Assembly: GCA_903904005.1 (NCBI GenBank)
Contig: CAIVAR010000045.1
Location: 1-35,461, forward strand
Direction: 5' to 3'
Source: an uncultured Anaeromyxobacter sp.
GTDB lineage: Bacteria > Myxococcota > Myxococcia > Myxococcales > Anaeromyxobacteraceae
DNA: 35,461 bases
Shown here: positions 9,068-12,957 of the stretch, piece after piece
Position numbering within the stretch: position 1 is the stretch's first letter
Layout: each line of letters starts with the position of its first letter
The notes under the pieces: model-generated
What the model saw: the letters and a program-made list of their open reading frames with translations, nothing else
What the model was told of the DNA's origin: nothing
The model's database searches: none
Program-made: the position numbers and the translations under genes

Positions 9068-10594
9068 ATGACCGAACGCCGGCCGATCCAGAAGATCCTC
9101 GTGGCGAATCGCGGAGAGATCGCGGTCCGCATCCTCCGCACGTGCCGGGAGATGGGGATCCGGACGGTGGCGGTCTTCTCCGAGTCCGACCGAGGGTCGC
9201 TCCACGTCCGCCTCGCCGACGAGGCGGTCCACGTCGGGCCGGGCCCGGCCCGGGAGAGCTACCTCGTCCCGGAGCGCATCCTCGACGCCGCCGCCCGGAC
9301 CGGCGCCGACGCCATCCACCCCGGGTACGGCTTCCTCTCCGAGCGGGCCGACTTCAACCGCGCCTGCCGCGCCGCCGGCCTCACCTTCATCGGCCCGCTC
9401 CCCGAGAGCCAGGAGGCGATGGGCGTGAAGACCAGCGCCCGGAGGCGGATGCAGGCCGCCGGCGTCCCGGTCGTCCCCGGGAGCGAGGGGCCCATCGACG
9501 ACGAGGGCGTGGCCGCGGCCGAGGCGGAGCGCATCGGCTTCCCGTTGATGCTGAAGGCGGCGGCGGGGGGCGGCGGCAAGGGGATGAAGCGCTGCGACCG
9601 GGCCGCCGACTTCCCGAAGCTCTGGCAGGCCGCGAAGCGGGAGTCGGCCTCGGCCTTCGGCGACGACCGGATCTACCTCGAGAAGTTCCTCGACGGGCCC
9701 CGCCACGTCGAGGTGCAGGTCTTCGCCGACGAGCACGGCAACGTCGTGCACATGGGCGAGCGCGAGTGCTCGGTGCAGCGCCGCCACCAGAAGATCGTCG
9801 AGGAGAGCCCCAGCCCGGTGGTCGACGCGGCCATGCGCGCCGCCATGGGGAAGGTGGCCGTGGAGGCCGCCCGTGCGGTGGGCTACGTGGGCGCCGGCAC
9901 GGTGGAGTTCCTCGTCGACGCCTCCCGGAACTTCCACTTCCTGGAGATGAACACCCGGCTCCAGGTCGAGCACCCGGTCACCGAGATGGTCACCGGCATC
10001 GACCTGGTGCGGCTGCAGATCGAGGTGGCCCGGGGCGGCCGCGTGCCCGCCCAGGGCGAGATCGTCCGGCGCGGCCACGCCATCGAGGTCCGGATCTACG
10101 CCGAGGACCCGGCCCGCGGCTTCCTCCCCTCTCCGGGCAAGATCACCTACCTGCGCGTCCCCGGCGGGCCCGGGCTGCGTGACGACTCCGGCGTCTACGG
10201 CGGCTGGGTCGTGCCGCCCCACTACGACCCGATGATCTCGAAGCTCGTGGCCTGGGCGCCGACCCGCCCGCAGGCCATCGGCCGGATGCTGGGGGCGCTC
10301 GCCGACTACCACGTGCACGGGATCGCCACGAACGTCCACTACCTCCGGGCCGTGCTCGACCACCCCGCCTTCCGGTCCGGCGCGTACGACACCGGGTTCT
10401 GCTCCGCCTTCGCGAAGGAACTGGTGAAGCCCCCCGACCCCGCGCTCGAGCCCGTGGCCCTCATCGCCGCGGCGGTGGCGGCCCACCGGCGAGACCACGA
10501 CCGTGCCGACGCGTTCGCCACCCGGGCCCACGGCCCCGGCTCGGCCTGGGCCAGCGCCGGCCGGGCACGGGCGACGCGGGGAGGCGATCGGTGA
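9068..10594 (+). CDS. accC: Biotin carboxylase subunit of acyl-CoA carboxylase
   Basis: A 508-residue ATP-grasp enzyme that carboxylates biotin on a carrier protein using ATP and bicarbonate. The N-terminal [15 protein letters not shown], the HPGYGFLSE block, Lys163, the GGGGKGM ATP loop (167-173) and the [14 protein letters not shown] active site (E293, N295, R297, E301) are all intact. One small departure is MGVK (118-121) where the family has MGDK. The core fills about 450 residues; the last 50 are an Ala/Arg-rich tail. The next gene, a carrier-like protein, starts with a GTGA overlap, so the two are coupled. With pccB at 1023 it probably forms propionyl-CoA carboxylase, so pccA would be an equally fair name. 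It could also serve a general acetyl-CoA carboxylase. Confidence 0.92.
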
Positions 10595-11109
10595 CCGCCA
10601 CCACCTACGTGGCCCTCCTCGACGGCGGGAAGCGCGAGGAGACCCTGCGCGTGAAGCGGATCGCGCCCGGCGTCTACGGGGTGACGCTGCGGGGCGTCAC
10701 CCGCCGGGTAGACGCCTTCCCCCACGACCACGGGACCATCTCGCTCCTGGTGGACGCCGAGAGCTACTCCGTCCAGCTCGACGAGCGGGGAAACGGCGTG
10801 CGCGTGCACCTGCGCGACTCCGTCTTCCCGATCGAGATCCTCGACGAGCGCCGGGCCCGCATGCGCCGGCCGCCCGGGAAGCTCACCGCCGAGGGGCGCC
10901 TCGAGCTGTCGGCGCGGGTGTCGGGCCGGGTGGCCGCGATCCTGCGCGCGCCCGGCGAGGCCGTGCGCGAGGGCGACGGCGTGCTGGTGGTCGAGGCGAT
11001 GGGAATGGAGAACGAGGTTCGCAGCCCAAAGGATGGCAAGGTGGTGGAGGTTGCCGTCTCCGTCGGGCATTCGGTAGAGGGCGGCGCCGTGCTGGCGATC
11101 GTGGACTGA
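10591..11109 (+). CDS. Biotinyl/lipoyl-domain carrier-like protein lacking the biotinylated lysine
   Basis: 172 residues. The N-terminal 90 or so resemble the region that links carboxylase and carrier domains in propionyl-CoA carboxylase alpha subunits. The C-terminal 75 form a biotinyl/lipoyl domain ([28 protein letters not shown] then [16 protein letters not shown]). In every working biotin carrier the turn reads A/V-M-K-M with biotin on Lys. Here codons 136-139 are gcg atg gga atg, A-M-G-M, so Gly138 replaces the acceptor lysine; there is no DKA lipoyl motif either. The GTG start overlaps the accC stop, with GGGGAGG 6 nt upstream. As read, it could not carry biotin. It may be a regulatory or structural pseudo-carrier, like plant BADC proteins, or the sequence may hold an error. 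Confidence 0.9.
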
Positions 11110-11163: not shown

Positions 11164-12957
11164 ATGGCGAAGGCCAAGGCAGCGAAGGCGAAGAAGAAGA
11201 CGGCCGTGAAGCCCGCACGCAAGCCCGCGAGGAAGGCGCCCGCGCGGAAGCCTCCGGCGAAGAAGGCGGCCGCGCCGAAGAAGGCGGCCGCGCCGGCGAA
11301 GGTCGCCCCGCGGGAGAACCCCGCCGCCGCCTGGCGCTCCGGCCCCTACGCGAAGGCCGTCGCCAAGGCCCCCGAGCGCAAGAAGGCCTTCCGCACCACG
11401 AGCGGCGGCACGATCCAGCCCGTCTACTCCGCGTCCGACGTCGCGCCGGCCCTCGACGCCCGCCTGGGCTTCCCCGGGGACTACCCGTTCACCCGCGGTG
11501 TGCAGCCCACCATGTACCGGGGCCGCTTCTGGACCATGCGCCAGTACGCCGGCTTCGGCACCGCCGAGGAGTCGAACAAGCGCTACCGTTACCTCCTGCA
11601 GTCCGGTCAGACCGGCCTGTCGGTGGCCTTCGACCTCCCCACGCAGATGGGTCGTGACTCCGACCACGTCCGCGCGCTCGGCGAGGTCGGGAAGGTGGGC
11701 GTCGCCATCGACTCGATCGACGACATGTCGACGCTCTTCGACCAGATCCCGCTCGGCAAGGTCTCCACGTCGATGACCATCAACTCGACGGCGTCGATCC
11801 TGCTCGCCCTCTACCAGGCGGTGGCCGAGAAGCAGGGTGTGGCCCCCTCCGAGCTGCAGGGGACCATCCAGAACGACATCCTGAAGGAGTACGCGGCGCG
11901 CGGGACCTACATCTATCCCCCGCGCCCGTCGGTCCGCGTCATCACCGACATCTTCGCCTACACCGCGAAGGTCATGCCCAAGTGGAACCCCATCTCCATC
12001 TCCGGCTACCACATCCGCGAGGCCGGCTCGACCGCGGTGCAGGAGGTGGCCTTCACGCTGGCCGACGGCATCAGCTACGTGGAGGCGGCCAAGGTGGCAG
12101 GCCTCGACGTCGACGCGTTCGCCGGGCGCCTCTCCTTCTTCTTCAACGCCCACAACAACGTGCTCGAGGAGGTGGCCAAGTTCCGCGCCGCCCGGCGGCT
12201 GTGGGCGCGCATCATGAAGGAGCGGTTCAAGGCGAAGGACCCGCGCTCCTGGATGCTCCGGTTCCACACCCAGACGGCGGGCTCCATGCTCACCGCACAG
12301 CAGCCCGAGAACAACGTGGTCCGGGTCACCCTGCAGGCCCTCTCCGCGGTGCTGGGCGGGACCCAGTCGCTCCACACCAACTCGCGCGACGAGGCGCTCG
12401 GCCTCCCCACCGAGTCCTCGGCGCTGCTCGCGCTGCGCACCCAGCAGATCATCGCCAACGAGTCGGGCATCGCCGACGTCATCGATCCGCTCGGCGGCTC
12501 GTGGGCCATCGAGGCCATGACCGACGAGATCGAGGGCAAGGCCTCCGAGTACATCGAGAAGATCGACGCCATGGGCGGCATGGTCGAGGCCATCGACAAG
12601 GGGTTCGTGCAGCGCGAGATCCAGGACGCCGCCTATGCCTGGCAGCGGCAGGTCGAGGAGAACGAGCACGTGGTGGTGGGCGTGAATGCCTACAAGACGG
12701 TCGATCCGCCGGTGACGGTCATGCGGGTCGACCCGGCGCTCGAGGCCGCGCAGGTGGCCCGGTTGAAGGCGTTCCGCGCCGCCCGCGACAGCACCGCGGC
12801 GAAGGCCGCGGTGGACGCGGTACGGGCGGGGGCGAAGGGGACCGACAACCTCATGCCCCTCATCCTCACCGCGGTGAAGGCGCACGCCACGATGGGCGAG
12901 ATCTCCGACGCCATGCGGGACGTCTTCGGCGAGTACCGGGAGACGGTGGTAGTCTAG
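11164..12957 (+). CDS. Methylmalonyl-CoA mutase, catalytic subunit of split type, with Lys-rich N-terminal tail
   Basis: A 597-residue catalytic (alpha) chain of B12-dependent methylmalonyl-CoA mutase, which interconverts methylmalonyl-CoA and succinyl-CoA. The barrel domain starts near residue 75 ([20 protein letters not shown]) and runs to about 555. Residues at the sites that separate methylmalonyl- from isobutyryl-CoA mutases are of methylmalonyl type: Tyr128 in RQYAGFG and Arg246 in [13 protein letters not shown]. There is no C-terminal cobalamin-binding domain, so a separate B12 subunit is needed; neither it, an epimerase nor MeaB is in the window. The first 50 or so residues are a Lys/Ala/Pro-rich histone H1-like tail ([27 protein letters not shown]). 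The tail is supported as translated by GGAGAGGA 5-9 nt before the ATG. It follows the carrier gene after 54 bases. Confidence 0.93.

Follow-up and report, generated by a model that had tools for sequence, protein, structure and literature searches.

What normally defines a biotin carrier is a single lysine, and the carrier-type subunit of a putative propionyl-CoA carboxylase from an uncultured Anaeromyxobacter sp. lacks it. This raises the question of what such a subunit is retained for and how the enzyme encoded around it could still obtain biotin. The analysis was based on the window, i.e. the whole stretch of 35,461 nucleotides, on the genome to which it belongs (G000) and on the genomes of its relatives (G001 onwards). 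The following features make up the locus:

1023–2585, + strand: carboxyltransferase (CT) subunit of the PccB type; PF01039, E 1.5e-187; syntenic with the biotin carboxylase, carrier and mutase genes across the family
9068–10594, + strand: biotin carboxylase (BC) subunit, 508 aa, catalytic motifs intact by motif alignment; PF00289, PF02786 and PF02785; omega 0.05 against G002
10591–11109, + strand: carrier-type subunit, 172 aa, an open reading frame with a BT domain and a biotinyl domain without the lysine; PF00364 and BT-BCCP fold matches
10591–10881, + strand: N-terminal BT-like (BC-CT bridging) domain, residues 1–97; AF2 model and Foldseek search with the stand-alone version of G005
10882–11106, + strand: biotinyl (BCCP) domain, residues 98–172; PF00364 on residues 112–170 and hmmsearch matches to solved biotinyl domains
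11002–11004, + strand: GGA, encoding Gly138 at the position of the biotinyl lysine, by direct reading; GGG in G002
11164–12957, + strand: large subunit of methylmalonyl-CoA mutase, 597 aa, with a basic N-terminal tail; PF01642, E 5e-229

The gene order of CT, intervening genes, BC, carrier and mutase is kept across the family. Judged by this synteny and by protein family, the locus is a split propionyl-CoA carboxylase, and carboxylation of propionyl-CoA is predicted from the type of the CT together with the adjoining methylmalonyl-CoA mutase. CT and BC, two of the three components of such an enzyme, are present, and the third, a biotinylated carrier, is represented by a protein that is not biotinylatable. 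The open reading frame of the carrier begins inside the 3' end of the BC frame, overlapping its stop codon. In the window and in every lysine-less genome examined the BC motifs are complete, counting those residues that we take to be catalytic from general knowledge of biotin carboxylase. The coupling to an intact biotin carboxylase proposed by the initial annotation is therefore borne out by both the overlap and the motifs, and a loss of BC activity appears unsupported, since the predicted catalytic motifs are all there. A His-to-Gln change in one of the BC motifs occurs in genomes with and without the carrier lysine alike and is thus unrelated to its loss.

Direct reading of positions 10996–11007 (gcg atg gga atg) gives A136-M137-G138-M139, so that codons 136–139 indeed specify AMGM in place of AMKM. 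In the window carrier the tip of the hairpin lacks lysine, the (A/S)MKM motif having Gly at residue 138. The surrounding domain is otherwise a normal biotinyl domain in sequence and in its structure matches, as had been stated from the sequence (PF00364 Biotin_lipoyl, E 4.2e-14, 52.6 bits against a cut-off of 22.1). The sister species G002, represented by a different assembly, likewise has AMGM with the codon GGG, in a carrier 80% identical to that of the window (BC 90%, mutase 93%). Gly138 is thus no read error, which the initial annotation had already thought unlikely, and the change from Lys to Gly is real and not an oddity of one genome. As had been claimed, the subunit is predicted to be unable to hold biotin at the usual site.

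The fate of the lysine was followed in a family set of 24 genomes from six genera (Anaeromyxobacter relatives), four of them in the genus of the window. Lysine is found at position 138 in nine genomes (G006, G007, G012, G015, G017 and G019–G022) and is replaced by Gly in G000 and G002, by Arg in G008 and G014, and by Gln in G011. The genome of G011 is a single contig, as is that of G005, in which the carrier protein breaks off at residue 99, just ahead of the biotinyl domain, with BC and mutase intact. Within the window's genus, both members that keep the carrier gene have Gly; a change in this strain alone, with lysine in its orthologues, is therefore not what was found. Its third member, G003 (99% complete), is without BC and carrier beside the mutase, with CT and mutase 91% and 93% identical to those of the window, and in G001 (74% complete) neither BC nor carrier was seen. 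BC and carrier are similarly absent, with CT and mutase retained, in G009 and G013. In the latter, an in-frame remnant of 64 aa (L107:12832–13026), CREM joined to RMENELRSP, consists of about 29 residues from the start of BC and about 36 from the end of the carrier, CT and mutase being intact; this remnant is a snapshot of the loss of the BC–carrier pair.

In the order as a whole, EAMKMEN[EQ] occurs in 121 of 145 genomes, and a non-Lys form within a genuine biotinyl domain in five, all of them in the window's family; a sixth pattern match (EAVHMENQ) lay in an unrelated sequence and was rejected. In the other families of the order the motif occurs in 112 genomes, always with the lysine. The locus thus shares with the split propionyl-CoA carboxylase of other Myxococcales the three subunits (CT, BC and BT-BCCP carrier), the BT-biotinyl architecture and, within the window's family, the synteny with the mutase, at a carrier identity of 40–60%, but differs by Gly in place of the biotin lysine. 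A search with EA[M/L/V][G/D/E/R/H/Q]MEN[E/Q] gave 79 matches in 84,980 species genomes, a set that may leave out the window's own; only three lay in a biotinyl domain, all from Anaeromyxobacter or Myxococcales MAGs. Carriers with Gly, Arg or Gln were not found in other phyla with EA-xx-MEN[EQ] patterns, outside of which other flanking residues or replacements would fall. Parsimony on a tree of BC and mutase gave three losses of the lysine. A tree constrained to unite G011 with the Gly and Arg genomes in a single clade was rejected (AU p 0.010), and one uniting G005 and G010 with them was not (p 0.233); the Gly and Arg genomes may go back to one common loss (support 69/87). The hairpin residues around the missing lysine, EA[ML]xMEN[EQ], are retained in the lysine-less proteins, with M137 changed to L in three of the five.

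Pairwise codon models gave an omega of 0.059 for the lysine-less biotinyl domain between G000 and G002 (LRT against 1, 38.5) and of 0.080 between G008 and G014 (36.4), and of 0.051 and 0.107, respectively, for BC. Both domain values lie far from neutrality, and purifying selection is seen on the lysine-less domains and on BC alike; with dS around 0.8 to 2.5 in these pairs, the values are rough. For the whole carrier gene, omega was 0.057 (LRT against 1, 96.9), the frame is open in two species, and neither frameshifts nor stop codons were seen in lysine-less carriers or BC in the pairs compared. The window carrier accordingly shows neither the neutral evolution nor the frame damage of a pseudogene. 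The ratio of changes in the biotinyl domain to those in the BT domain was 42:30 in lysine-less pairs versus 35:49 in pairs with lysine (Fisher p 0.054). Taken together, the lysine-less biotinyl domain is constrained yet probably partly relaxed.

In the AlphaFold model of the window carrier (mean pLDDT 77.7), eight strands followed by a helix precede the biotinyl domain, and Foldseek aligned the full-length model to the BT-BCCP segments of ACC1, PCC alpha and MCC alpha (E about 1e-8). The 99-aa protein of G005, modelled alone with moderate confidence (pLDDT 63.8), had only BT-bearing carboxylase chains among its 32 best Foldseek matches (PCC, MCC, glycolyl-CoA carboxylase and ACC), with TM up to 0.75 and no E-value below 0.001. 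By these models, the part ahead of the biotinyl domain forms a BT (BC-CT bridging) domain of the propionyl-/methylcrotonyl-CoA carboxylase alpha type; this barrel sits in the carrier polypeptide because the enzyme is split. In propionyl-CoA carboxylase, BT is the domain of interaction between BC and CT (PMC3199775). The likeness to BT of the PCC, MCC and ACC alpha chains lies in the eight-stranded fold and the best structural matches; the domain differs in being a separate 99-aa protein in G005 and in being fused to a lysine-less biotinyl domain in the window. From the truncation in G005 it follows that the BT part can be kept without the biotinyl part. The idea of a scaffold put forward in the initial annotation is plausible and partly supported by these two points, the bridging type of the domain and its retention alone in G005.

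The supposition that a working carrier exists elsewhere agrees with the gene content of G000, which encodes five other biotinyl domains bearing the lysine: AccB, pyruvate carboxylase, a fused methylcrotonyl-type alpha subunit, a fused protein of 963 aa and a carrier of 70 aa. Two of these need to be located:

L045:11941–12153 (contig C18 of G000), − strand: orphan 70-aa carrier with ESMKM, adjoining an enoyl-CoA hydratase gene
L235:6678–8684 (contig C5 of G000), − strand: fused methylcrotonyl-type carboxylase alpha subunit

A second BT-BCCP carrier with AMKM was sought in this genome and not found; the search proposed earlier thus yielded carriers of other types only, the 70-aa ESMKM protein included. 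The 70-aa stand-alone carriers resemble PRK05889 by size and motif alone, are encoded outside the window and have no BT domain in contrast to the window carrier; with ESMKM intact, they are the proposed partner in trans. In G005 and G011, both single-contig genomes, the only free-standing biotinylatable carriers are AccB and the 70-aa protein, the others being fused multidomain enzymes. The 70-aa carrier was present in all five near-complete genomes with a lysine-less or truncated carrier and an intact BC. The exception is G014 (81% complete), in which a lysine-less carrier and BC are found and a 70-aa carrier was not; G004 has the 70-aa carrier and no orthologous BC. Since few genomes are involved and the association ignores phylogeny, the co-occurrence of 70-aa carrier and BC is suggestive only.

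Across the family, the 70-aa carrier occurs in 15 genomes and the fused methylcrotonyl-type alpha in 11; together they cover all 24, with both in only two, one of which is the window's own genome. The fused alpha was rejected as a universal replacement carrier, being absent from G002, G005, G008 and G011, whose carriers are lysine-less or truncated. The methylcrotonyl-type CT operons of G002, G005, G006, G008 and G011 contain neither a BC nor a carrier gene, so that the window-type BC or AccC is probably already at work on a carrier in trans. A shared BC and a small carrier used in trans are thus likely within this family, the specific pairing being our inference. Two side observations concern other carriers. 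In the window's genus, the small carriers read ESP(M/L/V)DG after the hairpin, resembling SPKDG of the propionyl-CoA carboxylase carrier, and most other family members have EA-xx-G. In G004, which is without the BC–carrier pair, a cassette of OAD_gamma, a carrier with AMKM and OAD_beta lies behind a CT (L106:10630–14171); by its gene content this is an operon like that of a sodium-pumping methylmalonyl-CoA decarboxylase.

The reading that we favour, and to which we give an even chance, makes the subunit a BT piece retained for the assembly of a split propionyl-CoA carboxylase that would receive its biotin in trans, probably from the 70-aa carrier. On this view, what was once the biotin carrier of a three-part enzyme (CT, BC and carrier) would have given up biotin and would still be produced for its part in assembly. 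The BT barrel at its N-terminus would bridge BC and CT, and its lysine-less biotinyl domain would be kept folded and partly relaxed. Carboxybiotin would be shuttled by another carrier, the orphan 70-aa ESMKM protein being the best candidate; BC would charge it for PccB and, where present, for the orphan methylcrotonyl-type CT. The account draws on the Gly codon and the recurrent loss of the lysine, the purifying selection, the BT fold, the BT-only protein of G005 and the accompanying small carrier, all of which are shown; the bridging role and the supply of biotin in trans are inferred. Besides the exceptions G014 and G004 and the small association described above, two results count against this account. 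The loss of BC and carrier in G003, G009 and G013 with CT and mutase in place means that CT does not strictly depend on them, and the faster change of the biotinyl domain relative to BT in lysine-less pairs fits decay. In such a decay, the locus would be losing its BC–carrier pair in stages, biotinylation first, after another system had taken over, and the residual constraint would be recent or would reflect only folding or co-translation. The clean absence of both genes in G003, a member of the same genus whose CT and mutase match those of the window at the identities given above, their absence in G009, the fusion remnant of G013 and the relaxed biotinyl domain all speak for it; the omega values (0.05–0.11 on BC, 0.06–0.08 on the lysine-less domain, at the dS given above), the undamaged frames and the complete BC motifs speak against it. 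We consider decay unlikely, though it is the main rival; the assembly-subunit account is the most economical, and both can hold along the tree.

A regulatory role like that of BADC, in which the lysine-less domain would fill the carrier sites on BC and CT, compete with a biotinylated carrier and so tune activity, seems improbable. It would agree with the retained hairpin, with selection on the domain and with a free biotinylatable carrier in trans, but M137 has become L in three of the five lysine-less proteins, and because G005 dropped the whole biotinyl domain and keeps BC and mutase, regulation of this type is unlikely to be general. That biotin is attached to another residue of the window carrier, or that AccB takes the place of the 70-aa carrier as supplier, is very doubtful: G005 and G011 do have AccB as their other free carrier, but the window protein has no lysine at its hairpin tip, and it is the 70-aa carrier that has neither a BC nor a CT of its own next to it. 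Error in assembly or sequencing might come to mind, both Gly genomes being fragmented multi-contig assemblies; its probability is negligible, and as a cause it was ruled out by the same residue with different codons (GGA and GGG) in two species and by the Gln replacement and the truncation in single-contig genomes.

Plant BADC proteins of the plastid heteromeric ACCase, to which the subunit had been likened, are also carrier-like, lack the biotinylation motif and accompany an intact biotin carboxylase. They have been described as BCCP-like proteins that act as assembly glue and are unique to the plant enzyme (PMC11926652). The likeness stands as regards the missing motif. It fails in that BADCs are extra paralogues that accompany a functional BCCP within one complex, whereas the locus here has no carrier-type subunit other than the lysine-less protein and no second BT-BCCP carrier exists in the genome. 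The window carrier further differs by its BT domain, by belonging to an enzyme of the PCC type and by a family in which the lysine position disappeared by several routes (Gly, Arg, Gln, truncation). A BADC would moreover be expected to bind both BC and BCCP and to promote assembly or tune activity. As homology, the comparison is weak. AccE (epsilon) subunits offer a functional analogy only: these small, non-catalytic proteins enable the assembly of acyl-CoA carboxylases that have no BT helix (PMC3199775). A literature search gave no report of bacterial lysine-less carriers, a bacterial BADC equivalent or an Anaeromyxobacter propionyl-CoA carboxylase, an absence that is not proof.

We put forward more tentatively, at somewhat less than an even chance, that a dedicated carrier has repeatedly turned into a non-biotinylated assembly subunit (once into a free-standing BT domain), with biotin in trans from a small carrier shared by two carboxyltransferases, as a convergent bacterial counterpart of plant BADC. 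The natural series of Lys, Gln, Arg, Gly, loss of the domain and loss of BC and carrier probes the essential job of a carrier subunit, i.e. whether this is to swing biotin or to hold the complex together. It predicts a shared, promiscuous small carrier and provides a bacterial case to set beside the plant proteins.

Apart from the carboxylase, the methylmalonyl-CoA mutase of the window's genus carries a Lys/Ala/Pro-rich, histone-H1-like N-terminal tail of roughly 50–75 residues, recognized by composition, which mutases from the remaining genera examined lack. The tail or tailed mutase is found at 11164–11335 in the window, at L039:6569–8437 in G002 and at L108:2733–4529 (− strand) in G003; its composition is kept and its sequence is variable between species.
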